From Halobacteriovorax marinus (GTDB lineage Bacteria > Bdellovibrionota > Bacteriovoracia > Bacteriovoracales > Bacteriovoracaceae), in contig MAAO01000006.1 in assembly GCA_002163155.1 (NCBI GenBank), positions 310,001-374,000 of the forward strand: DNA of 64,000 nucleotides, given 5' to 3'. Below the pieces are notes generated by a model, which was not told the origin of the DNA, searched no databases, and saw nothing but the letters and a program-made list of their open reading frames with translations. The position numbers and the translations under genes were made by a program. Shown here piece after piece: positions 37,849 through 49,769 of the stretch. Within the stretch, counting starts at the first letter, position 1. Every line of letters starts with the position of its first letter.

Positions 37849-38799
37849 ATGAAAAAACATATACTCCTAATTGACCCTCTTTCTAAGTTGAGTATATCTA
37901 AAGACTCAACTTTAATGTTTGCTCTTTCTCTAAAAGAAAAAGGTTTCGATGTTTCACTAATATTCGAAGAAGACTTCTTCGTTGTGAATAATGAAACTCC
38001 AAATCTTAGAGTCTATGATTTTGAAGGGACATTTGAAGAGGATGGCTGCTACTTAGAGAGCTTTGAGTTAACTACTTCGAGAATATGGCTAGCGGATAAA
38101 CAAAGTTGCTTACACATGAGATTAGACCCTCCATTCGATGGAAGGTACCTTCGGTTTTTATGGATGCAGAGATATTTTAAAACTTTGGGAGTAGAAGTTC
38201 TAAATGATCCTGATGGAATTTTACTTTTTAATGAGAAGCTTTATGCCTATGAACACGAATCAAGCCTTGAGACATACGTAGGAAGCTCTTTAAATGGTTT
38301 TTTGAGCTTCGTTACGAATATTAAGTCTAAAGGCCATACAGAGCTAATTCTGAAGCCCTTAGACCTTTATCAAGGGATAGGTGTTCAGAAGATTTCGCTA
38401 GATGAAGATTTTGAATCTATTTTTCAAAAGAAAATTGTAGAGTTTCAAGGTCCAGTAGTTGTTCAGCCTTTTGCGAAGGAAATTTCAAAAGGTGAAGTGA
38501 GAAGTTTATACTTTAAGGGAAAAGAATTAGGTTCAATTTTAAAAGTTCCAAAGAGTGGAGAGTATCTTGCAAACATTGCTCAAGGAGCAAGCTTTGATAA
38601 ACACGATTTAAATGATTACCAAAGAAAATCTTGCGAAGAAATCTGTACTGAACTTTCAAAATATGGAGTTGAATTGGTGGCCTTTGATATTTTAGGAGAT
38701 AGTATTTCAGAAGTGAATATTACCTGCCCAGGCCTTTTGGTTGAAGTTTCTAAGGCCTATGGCAAGAATTTGAGCTTTGATATAATTGATCTACTTTAG
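37849..38799 (+). CDS. GshB-like ATP-grasp protein (glutathione synthetase family)
   Basis: 316 residues. Bacterial glutathione synthetase features are seen in order: N-terminal Rossmann-like strand ILLIDPLSKLSISKDST, MRLDPPFDGRYLR, LNDPDGILLFNEKLYA, the ATP-grasp LILKPLDLYQGIGV, VVQPFAKEISKGEVRSLYFKGKELG, and the metal site EVNITCPG. The usual RANxxxGG block is degenerate (LANIAQGASF), so the substrate may differ from gamma-glutamylcysteine. No gshA lies near. Convergent overlap of 4 bases with the next gene. Confidence 0.75.
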   Translation: MKKHILLIDPLSKLSISKDSTLMFALSLKEKGFDVSLIFEEDFFVVNNETPNLRVYDFEGTFEEDGCYLESFELTTSRIWLADKQSCLHMRLDPPFDGRYLRFLWMQRYFKTLGVEVLNDPDGILLFNEKLYAYEHESSLETYVGSSLNGFLSFVTNIKSKGHTELILKPLDLYQGIGVQKISLDEDFESIFQKKIVEFQGPVVVQPFAKEISKGEVRSLYFKGKELGSILKVPKSGEYLANIAQGASFDKHDLNDYQRKSCEEICTELSKYGVELVAFDILGDSISEVNITCPGLLVEVSKAYGKNLSFDIIDLL

Positions 38800-39521
38800 T
38801 AACGAGGACCTGGTAGATCTTGCGTTTCATCGGTAGAAAATTCAATTTGAAATTTTACACAATCAGCATATCCTACAGCTGAAAATGGGCAATACCCTGG
38901 CTGATTTGGAAAACCATTATTTGCATAATAGTTACAAGTGTAATCCCATTGTACATCTTTAACTTCAATAACTAGTGGATCACTAGTATTCGCTGGCACA
39001 GAAAATTCTTTCACGTAGGAATATGATCCTACCGCGATATCATCAAATGTATGTTGAAAGACACAAGAACCCTGACTCGATCTTACACAAACTGATAATT
39101 TCAATTTTGTGTAGGGAAGTGGTGAGTAGTTACATTGCACATTATTTGAATCTGTCGAATAAATGGAAGGTCCACTGAGCGCTTTAATTCTAATATTTAA
39201 TTTAGAATCTGTTTGAAAGATGTATTGATCATTGGAACCAATATTTCTATTAGAGGCCCAGAAAATTCCATTCGGAGGTGGATTTCGATTTGGACTAGCT
39301 GTTCCGTGCACAACGACTTCAGGTAGTGAGTAATAACTTGGTAGGGATGGATCAACGTATGGATCTCCCGCAGGATCATCTGTTCCTGGATCTGTTGACG
39401 GGGGAACAACCGAAGATTGAGTCGTAGAAGTACTACTTGATTTCTTGTTAGTCGTTTTCTGAACACACGAAGTGAGCGATAGTATTACTAATAAGGTTAA
39501 TATTTTCTTTTTCCGATTCAT
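38796..39521 (-). CDS. Ser/Thr/Pro-rich lipoprotein of unknown function
   Basis: 241 residues. Lipobox LSLTSC. A Ser/Thr/Pro/Asp-rich linker (about 20-65) leads to a strand-rich Cys-containing domain (paired cysteines in VQCNYS, LSVCVRSSQGSCVF, DYTCNYY, PGYCPF, YADCVKF), probably disulphide-stabilised. The domain is not recognised. The ATG at 39521 is preferred: GAGGA sits 7 bases upstream, while the ATG at 39527 abuts it. One of the best sigma-28-like promoters of the window lies just upstream. Confidence 0.68.
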   Translation of the reverse strand: MNRKKKILTLLVILSLTSCVQKTTNKKSSSTSTTQSSVVPPSTDPGTDDPAGDPYVDPSLPSYYSLPEVVVHGTASPNRNPPPNGIFWASNRNIGSNDQYIFQTDSKLNIRIKALSGPSIYSTDSNNVQCNYSPLPYTKLKLSVCVRSSQGSCVFQHTFDDIAVGSYSYVKEFSVPANTSDPLVIEVKDVQWDYTCNYYANNGFPNQPGYCPFSAVGYADCVKFQIEFSTDETQDLPGPRY

Positions 39522-39551
39522 AATCATTCCTCGTCTTTCTATTCCTTAGTG

Positions 39552-39579
39552 TTATCGTCAAAATCTAAAAAAAACTTTA
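39552..39579 (-). promoter_or_regulatory. Sigma-28-like promoter of the Ser/Thr-rich lipoprotein gene
   Basis: On the minus strand, TAAAGTTT (39579-39572), 12 bases, then GACGATAA (39559-39552). The -35 is a perfect FliA consensus and the -10 matches 7 of 8. Predicted leader about 23 bases, with a proper ribosome binding site. Confidence 0.7.
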
Positions 39580-41627: not shown

Positions 41628-41706
41628 CCGCTATGAATTTTCAATAGGTTAAAGGAATTATCACTGTTGTAAATTGATTCACTTAGGTTTTTCCAAGGAT
41701 AGGAAA

Positions 41707-43152
41707 ATGAAGAAACAAGTTCAAACATGGTTGAAAAATAAAAAGGCAATTGTTGGAGTAGGTGTAACTGCTGTATTAATCCTTTCTGGAGTTTTTCAAC
41801 ATCGATTGAATACTAAATCAACTAATATATCTTCTCTTCAGGGAAATCTCTCAACCTGTTTCTCTAGAGTTAATCAAAGTTATACAGCGAAAGTTATAGG
41901 GGACAGTTCTTCTATGTATCTTGAGTCTGGTTTTATGAAAACAACAGAAGAGTGTTTTGCTGAAACTAGTAGTCAGTTTGAAGAAATTTTTAGTTCTACA
42001 GCTAAGAAAATGGGACAGGCATTGAATGCTCTCGTGAGCGATGTTCATTGGTTTCATGAACGAGTAGAGGAAACTACGAATTCGTTCTCGGAGCAGGACT
42101 CTGAGGTCGTTCTGAGTAACCTAAGTGATCGTTTCGAAAAATTAGAAATGAAATATGATGAAGTAGATGGTGAAGTCATAAGAAAAGTAGAGAGCATTTC
42201 ACTCTCAATAAGTAATATGACTGTTTTATTATTTATTTTATCTATACTTGCTCCTTTATTACTCCTTTGGGATTTAGCTGAGAGAAAAAATTTAAAACAA
42301 AGAAACGGTCTCACTGAAAAATCCGCAAGAGATAGGCTGGCCAGTGATAAAGCAGTTGTTCATTCTGAAGTCGCAGATATTATTAAAGAGGCCTTAGAGC
42401 AGAATAAGCTAGTTTATTGTTCAAAGTTATTTTCTCAATATCATGCTTTAAATCCAGTAAAAAATGTTGAAGACACTGTAGGGCGCATACAAACGATTTC
42501 TCTAGAGGCTGGAGAGTTAAGTGAAAATCAAATTGATGACATTTGGAGTCAAACAGAAAATGATGACTCACTTGTTATGAACGCTGAGGGAACTGAAGTT
42601 TCTAATGATGTTTATGATGGACCAGTGACAAATTTAGATTCGACTCTGACAACAGTTTCTACTCACTTGTCGAATAAACTCCTCGCTGAGGGTGTCGTTA
42701 TAGATTTAAATATTTCTGAAAACTTATTTGTCCAAGCTGAAGAAGAGGCAATAGAGCAAGTTGTTTATAATTTAATTATGAATGCTGTAAAAAATTGTCA
42801 AGTATCTGATGCTTCTCCCAGAATTCAAATCGAAGCCAAAAAGCTTGGTGATAATATTTTTGTAAATATTGAAGATTCAGGTCTTGGTTTTTCAAAAGAT
42901 TTTTTAAGTGCAGCTAATGGCCTAGGGGATCTTGATGATGAAATGCCTTTATCTCTTAAAATTTCGAGAGAACTGGTTGAGGACTTTAATGGCTCAATGT
43001 CATTTGAAAACCTTTATGAAGATAAAGAGATTTCAGGCTCAAAGGTTCAAGTTGTATTAAGAAGCAATGGAGAACAGCTTAAAAGAGTCGCGAGTATTAC
43101 AAAGGGTACTAAAAGAGAGATTCTAGAGTCAATGAAACAGCAATCTGTTTAA
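41707..43152 (+). CDS. Membrane sensor histidine kinase-like protein without a clear phospho-acceptor His
   Basis: 481 residues. Membrane helices 14-30 and 171-190 enclose a helical periplasmic domain. The C-terminal 320-455 is an HATPase_c fold: N box EQVVYNLIMNAVKN (Asn355/Asn359), G1 DSGLGF (390-395), G2-like NGLGD. The region where the dimerisation/phospho-acceptor helix should lie (195-320) shows no H-box; nearby His (HSEVADIIKEAL) has little family context. It may be a divergent kinase or a regulatory ATPase. ATG 41707 is used (AAGGA 7 bases upstream). No response regulator is adjacent. It ends 1 base before the convergent ChaN-like gene. Confidence 0.7.
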   Translation: MKKQVQTWLKNKKAIVGVGVTAVLILSGVFQHRLNTKSTNISSLQGNLSTCFSRVNQSYTAKVIGDSSSMYLESGFMKTTEECFAETSSQFEEIFSSTAKKMGQALNALVSDVHWFHERVEETTNSFSEQDSEVVLSNLSDRFEKLEMKYDEVDGEVIRKVESISLSISNMTVLLFILSILAPLLLLWDLAERKNLKQRNGLTEKSARDRLASDKAVVHSEVADIIKEALEQNKLVYCSKLFSQYHALNPVKNVEDTVGRIQTISLEAGELSENQIDDIWSQTENDDSLVMNAEGTEVSNDVYDGPVTNLDSTLTTVSTHLSNKLLAEGVVIDLNISENLFVQAEEEAIEQVVYNLIMNAVKNCQVSDASPRIQIEAKKLGDNIFVNIEDSGLGFSKDFLSAANGLGDLDDEMPLSLKISRELVEDFNGSMSFENLYEDKEISGSKVQVVLRSNGEQLKRVASITKGTKREILESMKQQSV

Positions 43153-44784
43153 TTAAAAAAACCTCTTTCTAAAGGTCTTGTACTTTCTTTTTGGTAGCAA
43201 GACCTTACAAAGATATAAGTAATTTTCTTGATTCATTTCTTTATGGCATAGAACTTCCATTATCTCCGGAAGTTTTTTCGATTTTTTCTCAAAATATTGA
43301 TCAAATAAAATGTCGCCAAACATATACCCAATAATTTTAGCCATCTTATAGATCTTAGAAAGATTTTGTCCTTTCAAAATTTCAGATATATTAATCTCTC
43401 TAGTGTCGTGTTCAATTAATTCGAGACACTGTAAATGGTAATTTCTTTCTAGATTTGTTTTCATTCTAGATTTCTCAAAAAGATCTGAATAGAGATCACA
43501 CTTTCTGTAGGGATTAATAATCTTGGAACAAAAGTAGGCAAAACAAAATTGAGACACAAAGAATGTGAATCTCTTCTCTTGAGAGGAGTGTGAAAGTATG
43601 CTTACTGCCTCATTCTTTTGTAAATTTCTTTGGATTTGCCATAAGTGTATTCCCCCAAGATAGGAAAGACGATTAATTGAATAATTAGAGCAATAGTAAT
43701 CATTTGTATTAGGAACTTTAAAACTTCTACCTTTAACCACAAGATCTTTAAAATATTTAGAAACAGTTGGCTTTTTTATTTTCTCTACCTTCTGCAAGAT
43801 GAAATTCATCTTTTGGTGATCATATAGGTTGAAATCTTCAAGAATATCTCTATCTATTTTTAAGTTTAATCCCTTGGCCATTTTCTCCGCTAAGAAAACA
43901 AAGGTGTCTGTGGCATTTTCATTAAAGCTCTTGAGTCCAGACTCCATTATATATTCATGAATATCAAACTCAGGATCTTCAAGTAAATTTTCGTACCAGT
44001 AAATCATACTTTCGTACTTAACCCATGGGGCAGAGGATTGAATTGAAAATTCATTTTCCTCAAATTCAATGATTTGAGTTTTTTTTCGGCCCATCTGGGT
44101 ATCTTCTAATTTCCAGTAAACAGCATCTAAGTTCTGGTGGATTATTGTTTGCTTGAATTTCGCATTAGTCCTTTTTTCTACTTCTCTTGGAAGTTTTGTG
44201 GGGATGATATGGTATTCACCAAAGAGAACTAGAATTTTAGACTTTGGAAAAATTGATAGATATTCAACAATGATTTCTGAAGCTTTATTATCACGCGCAG
44301 AAAGAGCGCCATTTGAATTTAGAGCAAGTATTTGATGACCACCCTTTTTAGCTAATTCAAAGAATACTTTGTACTGACTCCATGGAAATCTCCATGATTC
44401 GTAATAATTTATATTCTCTAGGAATTCAATTTCAGTCAAATGACCTCTTATATACTTATCAATTTCTTTTTGATGTTTAATATGAACAAATTCAACGCCT
44501 AGTACTATATGGTCATTCGTTTCAGTTATTGAGCGAATTAATCGCTGAAGGTTTCTAGAGCTTTGGTCAAATGAATGGAAATCTCCTAGATAAATAATCT
44601 GAGATCTTTTGATAGATTTGATTAATTTTTGATAACTTGAAATTAAGAAATCTCTGCTGGCGTATCTTCTTTGACTTCTTTGATAAGAAATAAGCTCTTT
44701 TGAAAGTTGGCCTTCGAGGGACAAGGCCTTCTTCTTCATATAATTGTAAATATTTTTTCGAATATTAGTTATATCTGTTTTCAT
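43153..44784 (-). CDS. Long ChaN-like (haem-binding uptake family) protein
   Basis: 543 residues. Residues about 40-240 match the ChaN/PF04187 domain: IIYLGDFHSFDQSSRNLQRLI, VLGVEFVHIKHQKEIDKYI, YESWRFPWSQYKVFFELAKKGGHQILALN and ILVLFGEYHIIPTKLPREV. No signal peptide is seen, and the C-terminal 300 residues have no family I recognise. ChaN itself is a roughly 300-residue lipoprotein, so this is a longer, apparently cytoplasmic relative. Its 5' end faces away from the 949-residue gene upstream; both are on the minus strand 58 bases apart. Confidence 0.65.
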   Translation of the reverse strand: MKTDITNIRKNIYNYMKKKALSLEGQLSKELISYQRSQRRYASRDFLISSYQKLIKSIKRSQIIYLGDFHSFDQSSRNLQRLIRSITETNDHIVLGVEFVHIKHQKEIDKYIRGHLTEIEFLENINYYESWRFPWSQYKVFFELAKKGGHQILALNSNGALSARDNKASEIIVEYLSIFPKSKILVLFGEYHIIPTKLPREVEKRTNAKFKQTIIHQNLDAVYWKLEDTQMGRKKTQIIEFEENEFSIQSSAPWVKYESMIYWYENLLEDPEFDIHEYIMESGLKSFNENATDTFVFLAEKMAKGLNLKIDRDILEDFNLYDHQKMNFILQKVEKIKKPTVSKYFKDLVVKGRSFKVPNTNDYYCSNYSINRLSYLGGIHLWQIQRNLQKNEAVSILSHSSQEKRFTFFVSQFCFAYFCSKIINPYRKCDLYSDLFEKSRMKTNLERNYHLQCLELIEHDTREINISEILKGQNLSKIYKMAKIIGYMFGDILFDQYFEKKSKKLPEIMEVLCHKEMNQENYLYLCKVLLPKRKYKTFRKRFF

Positions 44785-44841: not shown

Positions 44842-47691
44842 TTATGAATTAATATTATTTGTAAGGATAGAGAGGATTCTAGAGTTGCAATTTTTCTCTA
44901 AATGGCTAATTGAGTCTCTAAGGCTCGTGTGATTTATAAGTATTGACTCTAGTTCTTTTGAGCTAGGAACTTTTAGATTTTGTAAAATAGAAGAGACTGG
45001 CATATCAACAGCAGATGAGAGAATAAACTTCATAAACTTTGCAAGGAGATCGGAAGTATACAGTTGAACAATTACCTTATCGCCAGAGATGAGCTGAATG
45101 TAGTGAGTGTTGTTATCAGGCTCAAGTCCCGTTTCAATGCTCGTAAGAGGTAAGTGTATATCACTAGGGTTCTTTAGAGGGATCTTAGGGAATATGTCCT
45201 CGTTCTTTGGGTAGATATTGTATGAAGAGCTCTTGATTAGCTGCTCTACAATCACAGGGTTCTTAAAGATCTCTGCAGGAGTTTGATCTAATTTCTCAAG
45301 TGAGTTGTTGAGACCTGTTTTAAAATGAGAAAGCATGCTCATTGTGTGCCAAGAGTATTTCTTAACTATTGAGTCGAGGAGCATGGCTGACTTTTCATAA
45401 TTTTCTTTTAAAGTTTCTGGGTGAGAATTTAAAATCTCAGATGAAGTTAGATTAAAAACATTGAAAGACTCTAAAAGATGCTCAGGAATATGTTGATTCT
45501 CTAAGAAGAATTTTGGAATAAGTAGAGATCTCAACTTTGACTTAATTTTGGTATATCCACCATTCAAGAAGAGTTGAATAATTTGTTTTCCAAGTTGAGT
45601 ATTAAAATACTCTCTAAATACATTTAAGTTAATATCATTTCTTTTTGGTATAAGTCCAAAATATTGAAAATAAGCCATTCCGTATTGTTCTAACTTAGCC
45701 TGGTAAACATCAGAAGAAGTTAGCTCAAGTATAATATTTTTTGGGTTTGTGTAGTTCACTATAAGAAGAAGTGGAAATCTTTCTTCATTTCTTATGGTAA
45801 TTCCTAAAAGTTCAGAAGTTACTCTGTTTTTTCGTCCAGAATTGTATTCACTGCTTAAGGTTTCAATCTGAAAGAAAGTATCAAATGGAGTACAAGAAGT
45901 AGTGAGGTTCTTGAAAAAGTTAGGATGTGTAATATTGGAAGAATCATTAGAAGTTGAGCTAAGTAGTAGTCCGTCTAATATTGCATCTTGATGAAAATCA
46001 AATGTTACACCTTCTGCGGGCTCTCCTTGATAAATAGGAGTAGAAGAAGGAGATTTTTGATCCATAAACCTATGAAGCTCTCCGACGAAGCTGTGAAACT
46101 TATTAAAAATTTCTAAATTTCCATTCCATCTAAAACTTAGGCAAGATTCTTTATCAGAACTAGCAATTGGAGTTAAGAAGGCAGGTTTAGAGAAATGTTT
46201 TCTCTTCTTAAAGATATATAAGTAACTGGCTATCTCACCACGACCAGTTAGCTGGTCAAAGTTAAATAAGGCTTCAATTTTAGTATCTTTTAAAAAATGT
46301 TCGATCTTATCACTTTGAGAAGGAACGAAGAACTTTTGATTTGTAAAAACGTAGAGATAACCACTCTTATCTAGCTCTTTTAATTGCGAACTAATTTGAG
46401 ACATCAGGTAGTGATGTGGGTTTTTCTTTGGAAGCTCCGTAAGGTTTAAAACAATTCTATCGAAAACTTGAGAGGTTTCCTTTATTTCGCTATTGTTAAA
46501 AATAGACATTTGTCCGGCTTCATTTGCTGAAGACTTTAAATGTTTGTCATTCATGACTGAACAAATAAGAGGAAGAACGTCGTGACCTTGAAATGTAGAC
46601 AATTCAATTAAAAAAGTTAGAAACTGAATTTCCTGACATATCTTAGTATATTTTCCATGAAAGAATTCTGAACCTGAGAACTCTGGACAAATAACCTTTT
46701 GCCAGTCTTCAAGAACATTATTCTCTTGGGCCATCCAATGGGAAAGGCTGAGTGAAGATAAATTATTTCCAGAGAACTTTGTTGAAAGAGTTGTTAACTT
46801 TTCTTTAGATCTCGTTTTGAATAGATTTTCAAATGGAGTTCCTTGCTCTTCACCATCATTTTCTAGCCAAGTAGGGAGACTGGTCAAAAGACTGTTCACA
46901 AATAGACCAAATGATTTGTGAGAATATGAGTGAGAGTATTCAAGCTCTGAAAGATCATATGTCGCAAGCTTCATCATTTCAGTAGTTGAAATTCGAGCAA
47001 GATTATTTTTAATATCAGTAACACTTTCACTTGTGTTTATTGATGGTCGGTACCAGCTGTATTGGTGAATTTTGAAAGACTCACATTTCAATTCTGTACT
47101 AGATCCTGTTTTAAAAATTCTACTAAGAACTGAGTTAGGATTATGTAAATCAATTTTATCAACACTAATCTCTAGTTTAGTTGCCAGAGCTAAGAGAAAT
47201 CTAGCTTTGTATAGGTAAACTGTTACAGATCTAAAGCAGTAGAGGTCAATAAAATTATCGATCTCTGGGGCGTATTGCTTAGATGTTGAAATGTAATTTG
47301 AAAACTTCGTAGAGTTATCTAATTTATTAGTATGAATGTTTTTAAATTCTATATAATTTAAAAATTCACTAAAAACTATTTTCTGATGGGATTTATTTCT
47401 ATTAATAATTTCTTTGAATTGGTTTTTAGCATCTGCAATTAAGGCGTTATGAGCCCTCTTAATACAGAAGCCTGGTCTAGATAGAAGACCTTCACCGCTC
47501 CACCCTGGAACAAGAAATGATTGTGGTTCAAATGATACTGTGTGATTTCCAGAAAATTCTGGAGGCAACTCGAGGTCTAAACTCCCTTGATTGGAGCTTC
47601 CAAGTTGTGCGGCCATAAGTCCTTGATTTATAGGGGACGAATTAAGCCAAGATAGTGCTGTAAATTGATCAGTATTCAATTCACACACCAA
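44842..47691 (-). CDS. Large protein resembling an N6-adenine DNA methyltransferase lacking the catalytic motif
   Basis: 949 residues from a TTG start. The middle (about 400-500) looks like the second half of an N6-adenine methylase: VFDRIVLNLTELPKKN where FDxIxxNPPY is expected, then LDKSGYLYVFTNQKFFV, FLKDTKIEALFNFD and ASYLYIFKKR (compare PGGxxxxVxPxxFL...RxxLLxxxxIxxIIxL...TxxLxFxK). A later block LGKQIIQLFLNGGYTKIKSKLRSLLIPKF resembles target-recognition or C-terminal parts of type I/IIG enzymes. NPPY is replaced by NLTE (416-419) and no FxGxG SAM loop is seen. It is therefore probably a non-catalytic relative. No partner restriction gene is present. Confidence 0.5.
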   Translation of the reverse strand: MVCELNTDQFTALSWLNSSPINQGLMAAQLGSSNQGSLDLELPPEFSGNHTVSFEPQSFLVPGWSGEGLLSRPGFCIKRAHNALIADAKNQFKEIINRNKSHQKIVFSEFLNYIEFKNIHTNKLDNSTKFSNYISTSKQYAPEIDNFIDLYCFRSVTVYLYKARFLLALATKLEISVDKIDLHNPNSVLSRIFKTGSSTELKCESFKIHQYSWYRPSINTSESVTDIKNNLARISTTEMMKLATYDLSELEYSHSYSHKSFGLFVNSLLTSLPTWLENDGEEQGTPFENLFKTRSKEKLTTLSTKFSGNNLSSLSLSHWMAQENNVLEDWQKVICPEFSGSEFFHGKYTKICQEIQFLTFLIELSTFQGHDVLPLICSVMNDKHLKSSANEAGQMSIFNNSEIKETSQVFDRIVLNLTELPKKNPHHYLMSQISSQLKELDKSGYLYVFTNQKFFVPSQSDKIEHFLKDTKIEALFNFDQLTGRGEIASYLYIFKKRKHFSKPAFLTPIASSDKESCLSFRWNGNLEIFNKFHSFVGELHRFMDQKSPSSTPIYQGEPAEGVTFDFHQDAILDGLLLSSTSNDSSNITHPNFFKNLTTSCTPFDTFFQIETLSSEYNSGRKNRVTSELLGITIRNEERFPLLLIVNYTNPKNIILELTSSDVYQAKLEQYGMAYFQYFGLIPKRNDINLNVFREYFNTQLGKQIIQLFLNGGYTKIKSKLRSLLIPKFFLENQHIPEHLLESFNVFNLTSSEILNSHPETLKENYEKSAMLLDSIVKKYSWHTMSMLSHFKTGLNNSLEKLDQTPAEIFKNPVIVEQLIKSSSYNIYPKNEDIFPKIPLKNPSDIHLPLTSIETGLEPDNNTHYIQLISGDKVIVQLYTSDLLAKFMKFILSSAVDMPVSSILQNLKVPSSKELESILINHTSLRDSISHLEKNCNSRILSILTNNINS

Positions 47692-47863
47692 GGATTGTTT
47701 AGTTTACAGTAGTGCATATTATATTAATATCTCATTAAAATAAGTGGGTATGGTTTTGTACACGAAGGATGGTTGAAAGTCATTTTAAATGACAGTCAAT
47801 TTAGTATTAAAATGTCCGACTTATAAGCTAAGGTATTGTTATTCCTCATTAAATTTAAAATGT

Positions 47864-47891
47864 TAAAGTTTCTTACATCTGAGGTCGATAA
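47864..47891 (+). promoter_or_regulatory. Sigma-28-like promoter of the acidic-protein gene
   Basis: TAAAGTTT (47864-47871, perfect), 12 bases, then GTCGATAA (47884-47891, 7 of 8). Predicted leader about 44 bases to the ATG at 47943, which has AGGAG 6 bases upstream. Confidence 0.7.
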
Positions 47892-47942: not shown

Positions 47943-48608
47943 ATGGACGAAAACAAACTAGAGGAAGCAATGGCCGAAACAGTTGAACAGAGTTTTAATG
48001 ACTCTGAACTTGAGGACATAATGAATGAAATTGAAAACCTTGAAAAAGAGTTTGTTGAAGATGGTGAAAGTGCTCCAGAAAACTTAGTTGTAACTGAGAC
48101 TAAGCAAAATGAAATGCAAAATGAAATTGATAAAGAAGTTGAGTCTATTTCTGAAGAAATGACACCAGTCGCTAGCGATGAAGAGCCAGTTGAGGAGATT
48201 CAAGAAGTATCAATGGCCGCAGAGCCGGAAGCTACAATTGAAGAATCAGTTGAAGAATCATTTGATGAAGTTGCAGATGAATTAGTAGCAGAAATGGAAG
48301 AAGAAGAAATAGAAATAGAAAATAATGTTGTTGAATTACCAACTGCCAAGGAATCTCCTGCAGCAGATAGTGGAGCAAATATGGACTTCACTGCGTCAGG
48401 ATCTATGGACTTTAACCTTAACTTTAAAATTGGAAGTGAAACAGCTTCTTTGAAAGTTGATGGTGAGAAAGGACTAACTGTTGAAATGGGTGGAGTTAGT
48501 ATCAAAATAACTGAATCTGAAGGTTGTACTGTGACAATGGATGGTGGTGTCAACTTCAATATTCCTTTGACCACAGCAGATGATGCAGCTAAAAAGAAAG
48601 CGGCATAA
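47943..48608 (+). CDS. Highly acidic protein with C-terminal strand-rich domain
   Basis: 221 residues, not recognised. Residues 1-140 are extremely Glu/Asp-rich (EEMEEEEIEIENN type) and probably disordered. Residues about 148-212 look like a small beta structure with repeated strands (MDFNLNFKIGSETASLKVDGEKG, GVSIKITESEGCTV, GGVNFNIPL). The tail is Lys/Ala. No signal or membrane segment. Its very acidic charge is opposite to the histone-like protein, which shares the same promoter type; a link is only speculation. Confidence 0.72.
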   Translation: MDENKLEEAMAETVEQSFNDSELEDIMNEIENLEKEFVEDGESAPENLVVTETKQNEMQNEIDKEVESISEEMTPVASDEEPVEEIQEVSMAAEPEATIEESVEESFDEVADELVAEMEEEEIEIENNVVELPTAKESPAADSGANMDFTASGSMDFNLNFKIGSETASLKVDGEKGLTVEMGGVSIKITESEGCTVTMDGGVNFNIPLTTADDAAKKKAA

Positions 48609-48654: not shown

Positions 48655-49236
48655 ATGTCTATAAAAATATTGGGGGGTTTGGCTAAAGGTCAAACCCTTT
48701 TAGTTCCTAAGGGTGATCTCATTCGCCCAACCTCGGTCATGCTAAGAAGAAAAATTTTTGATGCTCGTCAGGATATGAGTGGCTATTCATTTTTTGATAT
48801 TTGTGCAGGTAGTGGTGCTGTTGGCCTTGAGGCCCTATCTCGAGGTGCTGATGAAGTGACTTTAGTTGAAACTAACTCAAAAGTTTTTTCTTTAACAAAG
48901 ACAAATGTTAAAACTATTCAAAATTCATCTGCAGACTTAGGTAACATTCAACTTCAAAAAGGTGATGCAATAAAGTGGCTTTCAAAATTTCAGTCCACTT
49001 ATATGGCCATGTCTGAAATAGAGAAAGAGTCGGTTATTATTTTTATAGATCCACCTTATGAACAGCATGAGATATATAAGTCAGCACTTAATATATTAAA
49101 TGAAATAAATTTCTGTGGTGAAATTTGGATTGAATCTGATGAGCAGAAAGGTATCAAAAAGTCTTACTTGCAAGAGCTCTTTCCTGACAAAAAAATTTAT
49201 TCTCAAGGAACAAGTTTTATTCTCATCGTACGCTAG
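48655..49236 (+). CDS. rsmD: 16S rRNA (guanine(966)-N2)-methyltransferase RsmD
   Basis: 193 residues. It methylates G966 of 16S rRNA. The N-terminal KILGGLAKGQTLLVPKGDLIRPTSVMLRRKIFD is the RsmD pattern. The SAM loop is FFDICAGSGAVGLEALSRGA (46-65), and the catalytic DPPY is at 132-135. coaD follows at 59 bases, the conserved rsmD-coaD pair. Confidence 0.93.
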   Translation: MSIKILGGLAKGQTLLVPKGDLIRPTSVMLRRKIFDARQDMSGYSFFDICAGSGAVGLEALSRGADEVTLVETNSKVFSLTKTNVKTIQNSSADLGNIQLQKGDAIKWLSKFQSTYMAMSEIEKESVIIFIDPPYEQHEIYKSALNILNEINFCGEIWIESDEQKGIKKSYLQELFPDKKIYSQGTSFILIVR

Positions 49237-49295: not shown

Positions 49296-49769
49296 ATGTC
49301 TAAAACAGCCCTTTATGCAGGAACATTTGATCCTTTTACAAACGGTCACGAAGATATATTAAAAAGGTCTTTAAATCTTTTTAATAAAGTAACTCTTTTA
49401 GTTGCTGTCTCTCCATCTAAAAAACCCCTTTTTACAACTGAAGAGCGACTCGAAATGTTGAGAGAGCTTTTTAAAGATGATCCACGAATTACAGTAGACT
49501 CTTGGGATGGACTCTTAGTTGATTATGCTAAGAACAATAAAATAGATGTCGTAATAAGAGGACTAAGACCTACAGGTGACTTTGAAGTTGAGTTTCAGAT
49601 GGCTTCAATGAACAATAAATTATTTCCAGAGATGGAGACTGTTTTTCTTATGACGGAAGGGCAGAATTACTTTATTTCCTCTTCTCTTGTGAAGGAAGTT
49701 CATAATCACAGTGGTCATGTTAAAGACTTCGTACCAAAGATAATTTATAAATGGCTGACTAAGGGCTAA
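49296..49769 (+). CDS. coaD: Phosphopantetheine adenylyltransferase
   Basis: 157 residues. It catalyses the penultimate step of coenzyme A synthesis. The nucleotidyltransferase motif GTFDPFTNGH ends at His18, and the second site is YFISSSLVKEV. Size and sequence are standard. The downstream aminotransferase starts 7 bases later. Confidence 0.95.
   Translation: MSKTALYAGTFDPFTNGHEDILKRSLNLFNKVTLLVAVSPSKKPLFTTEERLEMLRELFKDDPRITVDSWDGLLVDYAKNNKIDVVIRGLRPTGDFEVEFQMASMNNKLFPEMETVFLMTEGQNYFISSSLVKEVHNHSGHVKDFVPKIIYKWLTKG

Follow-up and report, generated by a model that had tools for sequence, protein, structure and literature searches.

The window analysed here is a stretch of 64,000 nucleotides. 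On its reverse strand, the open reading frame at 44842-47691 holds 949 codons counted from the first TTG, without an internal stop. In the alignment of orthologues, the conserved start (MN..F.A..WL) falls on the TTG at 47679, giving a protein of 945 aa, and residue numbers throughout are counted from that codon. The gene so delimited (44842..47679, reverse strand) was named pMT and annotated as a pseudo-N6-methylase gene on the basis of the reading frame, the conserved start, orthologues in 137 of 241 genomes, and purifying selection. Families of the compared genomes carry sampling labels without taxonomic names (f1, f4, etc.), f1 being the window's own family. A putative pMT promoter, ATGACT-N17-TACAAA, lies at 47755..47783 on the same strand and represents an element enriched upstream of the f1 orthologues, where ATGACA is found in 19 of 34 upstream regions (1.8 expected) and CATGAC in 14 of 34 (0.8 expected). 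Autoregulation of pMT was considered and set aside: the strongly conserved intergenic ATGACA, followed after 17 bases by a -10-like box, was read as a promoter, and a further operator was not demonstrated.

Downstream of pMT and on the same strand is a gene for a ChaN/Tiki-superfamily-like protein of 543 aa (43153..44784), identified by a match to Pfam Cofac_haem_bdg (2.1e-20), its adjacency, and the motifs GDxH and GExH. On the forward strand, divergent from pMT, follow a gene for an acidic protein (47943..48608) that is conserved at the same locus in other families, rsmD for the 16S rRNA methyltransferase (48655..49236; Pfam Cons_hypoth95 4.1e-32 and synteny), and coaD (49296..49769), which was used as the synteny anchor. 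The initial annotation had described the gene as standing alone beside a ChaN-like gene and had proposed checking whether that neighbourhood is conserved. Conservation was confirmed, the ChaN-like gene being directly 3' of pMT in 28 of the 29 f1 genomes that hold both, and together with the divergent acidic-protein/rsmD/coaD operon it does not support the picture of an isolated gene.

Within the protein, all features being encoded on the reverse strand, the N-terminal helical region (residues 67-245; 46945..47481) is followed by the expected motif I site at residues 296-310 around TKFSGNNLSSLS (46750..46794), which lacks FxGxG, is placed by its collinearity in the hhalign alignment with related families (group B, below), and includes G304, invariant across f1. 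The motif IV relic D407-RIVL-N412-LTE stands in place of DxxxxNPPY (46435..46461), as judged from the D+5 spacing and collinearity, and R408, N412, P417, K418, and N420 are conserved in f1. The methylase-like block after motif IV (beta5-beta7, residues 427-495; 46195..46401), recognised by hhalign and conservation, is among the best-conserved parts of pMT. A target-recognition-like block (residues 671-735, FREYFNTQLGKQIIQLFLNGGYTKIKSKLRSLLIPKFF; 45475..45669) is conserved and basic and, taken alone, shows weak homology (0.021) to the TaqI_C-like part of group B. The C-terminal domain (residues 736-945; 44845..45474) has a pLDDT of about 60-90 as a block.

Searches of Pfam, NCBIfam, PADLOC, and PDB sequences with the window protein gave no significant match. 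The 34-row f1 alignment likewise gave nothing real against the same collections, and no methylase family was among the matches of its 34 members. Weak listings of HTH_54, PHA_granule, ZorC (0.001, 3 of 34 members), and colicin E9 were judged to be noise. An adenylosuccinate lyase encoded beside one ChaN-like gene had seemed a weak pMT homologue (0.03) and is an unrelated enzyme.

Close homologues of pMT were found in 36 of the 37 genomes of the window's own family, nearly always in one copy each; at that level of similarity, 22 genomes from other families yielded none. A profile built from 34 f1 homologues (A1) gave weak but real matches in other families, to ORFs of equal length, and two of those ORFs, used as queries, revealed the remaining relatives. 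Running a 26-row profile (A2) on 241 sampled genomes of the predatory phylum Bdellovibrionota gave homologues of 770-1100 aa in 137, nearly always as a single copy; one of these 137 matches is to be discounted, as the f9 protein concerned is a genuine methylase bearing NPPY. Thirteen families bear pMT (f1, f4, f5, f8, f10, f12, f13, f15, f17, f19, f20, f24, and f25), and with the A2 profile it was not found among the 241 genomes in f3, f6 (Bdellovibrio-like), f11, or the remaining sampled families.

The position of the gene is fixed. In 101 genomes pMT and coaD share a contig; the two genes are divergent and no more than 7 kb apart in 100 of these, and divergent at 8.6 kb in the remaining one; 12 further genomes have them on separate contigs and were outside this count. 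At the loci where neighbours were read, rsmD and often the acidic protein gene lie between them. In the pMT gene tree, every family forms one group, with the minimum possible changes for all groups together, and no relatives were found in plasmids, phages, or IMG/VR viral contigs. From the fixed coaD-side locus, the family-wise tree, and the absence from plasmids, phages, and viral contigs, it follows that pMT is a vertically inherited gene. Comparisons within the genus show saturation at synonymous sites (pS about 0.7) alongside protein identities of 61-86%. The dN of pMT is comparable to the values for chaN and rsmD and a little higher than that of coaD; with dS saturated, the ratios are rough. 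The gene is under clear constraint, that is, purifying selection, and the earlier proposal of a retained protein is supported, as a single-copy gene kept across the whole clade. A decaying pseudogene is ruled out by this selection and by a reading frame that is open in nearly all lineages.

Ancestry was traced through sister families still recognisable as methylases (f4, f5, f10, and f13, together group B). The group B protein L126 matches Pfam Eco57I at 4.2e-16, N6_Mtase at 2e-9, and MmeI_Mtase at 1e-6, and the crystal structure sequence of BseCI at 4e-4 with CCPPES aligned to ANPPYV; matches of group B to TaqI_C are weak (0.0012-0.034). Against 18 genuine Eco57I-type methylases of Bdellovibrionota, group B aligns at 1.3e-27 over 383 columns (reversed 0.39). 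The window family in turn aligns with group B by hhalign at 2.9e-14 over 747 columns, collinear from residues 70 to 906; the reversed control gave 0.31 and the shuffled one 0.56. Three segments of pMT match group B independently and in order, namely, 67-245 (8.7e-9; reversed 0.54), 400-500 (2e-5; reversed 0.19), and 736-945 (3e-5). For residues 400-500, the aligned part is about 432-497, and matches to three other groups range from 3e-5 to 3e-4, including f8 (3e-5) and gX (1e-4). Residues 501-735 (TRD-like) reach 0.021 alone against group B and are included in the full-length collinear alignment, and residues 246-400, around the lost motif I, are not significant alone against group B in hhalign. 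Compared directly with genuine methylases, the window family scores only 0.05.

Descent of pMT from Eco57I-type N6-adenine methylases, together with loss of catalysis, is highly probable, the descent being supported by the three independent, ordered segment matches and the full-length collinear match with its controls. The methylase-like character noted by the initial annotation is thereby supported, with profile statistics, controls, and conservation in 137 genomes behind it, as is the strand/helix rhythm seen at residues 400-500. The target-recognition-like block fared less evenly: it is conserved, basic, and within the collinear alignment, and reaches only 0.021 alone. The exact assignment of motif I and motif IV residues in the window protein is a putative one, resting on collinearity and spacing.

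Structure prediction contributed little. AlphaFold was run on the window protein with alignments of 4 rows (full length) and 3 rows (residues 250-505), drawn from the window, L031, L032, and L033, and gave mean pLDDT values of 43 and 41, respectively. Only about the C-terminal 215 residues of the 4-row model were folded with fair confidence. In these low-confidence 3-4-row models, the strand/helix order of residues 406-492 fits a class I methyltransferase. Foldseek searches with the same low-confidence models against the PDB gave no significant fold match; a type I S subunit, which ranked first for the full model at E 0.11, was not taken as evidence.

Both catalytic signatures are missing from the window protein. 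Its motif IV region reads NLTE, as initially reported, with canonical D+5=N spacing and without PPY, and NPP[YFWH] is found in 0 of 83 unique proteins of the family. The SAM motif (D/N)PxxG[SAT]G is absent from the window protein and from every f1 orthologue, which agrees with the earlier statement that no SAM loop is visible. Other Eco57I-profile ORFs fetched from Bdellovibrionota carry NPP[YFW], having been chosen by that pattern, and the only two loci failing it are members of the pMT family. Since (N/D)PP(Y/F/W) in motif IV and (D/N)PxxGxG in motif I are two defining features of the Eco57I-type class and neither is present when tested, pMT is not classed as an Eco57I methyltransferase.

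The sister families retain more. SAM motif I is intact in seven orthologues of f4, f5, and f10 (e.g., IFDPTMGSGNFL or DPTMGSGNFL), with motif II as GLFGCDID, and motif IV in these seven proteins reads GCPPE, CCPPES, SAPPEQ, or AHFPDH. Elsewhere motif I is partly eroded (f13, LNLCAGSG), replaced (f8 and f12, SPTLRDGS), or gone (f1). Orthologues with both FxGxG and NPPY, named by the initial annotation as evidence against its reading, are thus represented by their first half only, the SAM motif being kept in some and NPPY in none. As no member among the 83 holds NPP[YFWH], NPPY was lost before the family radiated, and on the simplest reading of the sequences this loss would have come first, with SAM-site erosion occurring repeatedly afterwards. 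In f1, strong conservation of the former motif IV loop as N[LI]xxxPKxNPHH suggests that it has been put to a new use instead of decaying; residues 408-422, which form this former active-site loop, and residues 440-493 both rank among the best-conserved regions of the f1 proteins.

The best overall explanation, to which we give a probability of about 0.55, is that pMT is a dead Eco57I/TaqI-type methylase domesticated as a non-methylating, nucleic-acid-binding housekeeping protein. It derives from an Eco57I/TaqI-type gamma N6-adenine DNA methyltransferase, of which it represents the methylase half, comprising helical connector, MTase domain, and specificity region; common descent with that class is shown through the intermediate families. 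The sequences show that NPPY was lost ahead of the radiation and that the SAM-binding motif was eroded or lost in most lineages, the window's included. The gene then became fixed as a vertical, purifying-selected single copy divergent from rsmD-coaD, often followed by the gene for a ChaN/Tiki-like predicted enzyme. In the last step, pMT would have become a non-methylating nucleic-acid-binding platform with fixed specificity, using the retained groove, the specificity part, and PKKNPHH, a new basic loop that is conserved directly behind the former NPPY site. It would do so together with the ChaN-like enzyme, serving housekeeping and not defence. These parts differ in strength. A housekeeping role, as opposed to defence, is very probable because a single copy is kept at one chromosomal spot throughout one Bdellovibrionota branch. 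Binding of nucleic acid, as predicted from sequence, has about an even chance of being correct. More tentatively, pMT may belong to an undescribed core system of one large Bdellovibrionota clade, in which the dead methylase binds nucleic acid with fixed specificity, whether in the nucleoid, in replication or transcription, or on RNA. Its partners would be a ChaN/Tiki-like hydrolase and, as a third conserved protein in several families, c38.

The neighbouring genes bear on a second reading, in which pMT is a protein scaffold or allosteric partner, its dead fold holding or regulating the ChaN-like hydrolase or a second methylase in the manner of the inactive subunits of heteromeric methyltransferases. 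The close adjacency of chaN in f1 is consistent with this, as is the order pMT-c38-chaN in f8, f17, and f20. The c38 family, of about 240 aa and without a confident Pfam match (only a weak ATC_hydrolase below the cut-off), is found in 51 genomes, 50 of which also hold pMT, although both track the same clade. The ChaN-like protein keeps its active-site-type motifs, GDxH, GExH, and further near-invariant residues. Against such a partnership, pMT lacks an adjacent chaN in several lineages and c38 is missing from f1, f4, f5, and f13. The ChaN-like gene is present also in families without pMT, and since each occurs without the other in some lineages, the two are not strictly interdependent. The old motif IV loop and the TRD-like block also carry conserved basic residues, which suit nucleic acid better than a protein partner; a scaffold is considered possible and on the doubtful side.

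It is improbable that pMT is still a methyltransferase with an unusual motif IV, acting on DNA, RNA, or protein. Motifs I and II are retained in f4, f5, and f10, and the PP pair in f4 and f5 (GCPPE, CCPPES, and SAPPEQ), which speaks for an active enzyme; however, both the SAM motif and the PP pair are missing from the window family and from f8, f12, f17, f20, and f24, and the motif IV residues vary among families with no new catalytic residue in common. A competitor or defence-type role, in the form of a restriction-site decoy or part of an undescribed anti-phage system, is highly improbable; the initial annotation had entertained a competitor protein or part of an undescribed system. Descent from restriction-type methylases and a large multi-domain protein with a conserved neighbour speak for it. 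Defence genes are normally patchy and mobile, whereas almost all genomes of its families carry pMT, as a single copy at one fixed locus, with a vertical tree and no homologue found in plasmids, phages, or IMG/VR. No convincing PADLOC model was found, and neither pMT nor its neighbours contain a nuclease or other defence-system component. That pMT is an unrelated fold with chance methylase-like motifs is hardly credible: the window protein has no Pfam or PDB match, AlphaFold was uninformative, and genuine methylases are reached only at 0.05, but this is outweighed by the strictly controlled full-length match, the common genomic position, and a syntenic sister gene that is a recognisable methylase.

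The preferred reading of pMT as a domesticated dead methylase makes it a new family within an already known general class, that of inactive adenine-methylase-like proteins. No description of the family was found in the main texts of the open-licence papers searched, and a keyword search of the main text of a 2024 Bdellovibrionota comparative-genomics paper gave no mention of it; the bacterial family appears to be undescribed. Restriction-type methylases are usually mobile and short-lived within a lineage. This one was seemingly captured before 13 family-level lineages split, stripped of catalysis, and retained at a single chromosomal position by almost all descendants. Sister families display intermediate stages, with the SAM motif intact and NPPY gone and then with the SAM motif eroded, and therefore provide a rare sequence record of an enzyme becoming a non-enzyme. 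Together, pMT, the chaN-like gene, and c38 form a well-defined gene set for testing what a dead methylase became.

Among known systems, the neighbour at 43153-44784 shares with the ChaN/Tiki superfamily (PF04187) its profile match and the GDxH and GExH motifs. Unlike ChaN, it has neither a signal peptide nor a lipobox visible by eye at its N-terminus (MKTDITNIRKNIYNYMKKKALSLEGQ), and its length exceeds the 213 positions of the profile more than twofold; it is therefore distinct from ChaN proper, the iron-regulated haem lipoprotein. The Eco57I/TaqI/BseCI-type gamma N6-adenine methyltransferases (PF07669, PF02384, and PF12950) are like pMT in descent, via group B, in the order of helical connector, MTase domain, and specificity region, and in a length of about 900-1000 aa. 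pMT differs from them in that NPPY is absent from every member, the window lineage lacks the SAM motif, neither a nuclease domain nor a partner is recognised, and the gene is vertically inherited at a fixed, housekeeping-type locus. PglX of BREX and similar large methylases belong to a large N6 methylase superfamily with an attached specificity domain. With PglX, pMT has this broad superfamily in common, likened by description; unlike PglX/BREX, pMT and its ChaN-like neighbour match no BREX, PGL, or other PADLOC component and lie outside a defence island. The mitochondrial TFB factors have an adenine-methylase fold without catalysis and serve as a nucleic-acid-binding or regulatory platform. 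METTL14 is the inactive partner of METTL3 and has been termed a pseudo-methyltransferase (PMC6112310). These eukaryotic proteins come from other methylase lineages and have known partners, unlike pMT, and the resemblance is an analogy of working only, implying no membership, in which a non-catalytic adenine-methylase fold would serve as a binding or regulatory platform.

The pseudo-N6-methylase gene (pMT) is preceded, in family f1, which includes the window, by an unusually strict -35-like box, (C/A)ATGACA, often itself preceded by a T-rich tract; the putative promoter in the window spans 47755-47783 (-). The variant CATGACA occurs in 11 of 34 f1 upstream regions against 0.3 expected. The element could be a lineage-specific promoter, or could conceal an operator. 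One member of f1 has a genome reduced to 1.6 Mb; its pMT is shortened to ~764 aa (L091:4761-7067) with the reading frame intact and the location by rsmD-coaD retained, and no chaN-like gene was found in that genome.

Directly 3' of pMT at other loci lies c38, a protein family of ~240 aa (L088:8322-9041, L179:9567-10298, and L171:5187-5891, among others), which precedes chaN in several families and gave a weak, sub-threshold Pfam match to ATC_hydrolase (PF14196). A HATPase_c gene, identified using Pfam at 41674-43152 in the window, is retained at this position in 17 of the compared loci, and in other families it adjoins a response-regulator-like gene. Its product is probably membrane-anchored at the N-terminus, and the Pfam search found no phospho-acceptor domain in it.

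On the divergent side, the acidic protein (47943-48608) adjoins rsmD in f1, f8, f12, f15, f17, f19, f20, and f25 among the compared loci. Its family has no convincing Pfam match and is laid out as a conserved N-terminal helix (like ELxDIMxEIExLEKE), a long acidic linker, and a C-terminal beta-like segment.

Two elements in the window were called sigma-28 (FliA)-like against the consensus. One, with one mismatch (TAAAGTTT-N12-GACGATAA, 39552-39579, -), lies shortly 5' of the start of a 243-aa ORF (38796-39527, -) without a Pfam match. The other (TAAAGTTT-N12-GTCGATAA, 47864-47891, +) sits 5' of the acidic-protein/rsmD/coaD operon, and elements resembling it were seen by eye at the equivalent position in several orthologous loci. 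If genuine, this promoter would tie an rRNA-methylation/CoA operon into the motility regulon.
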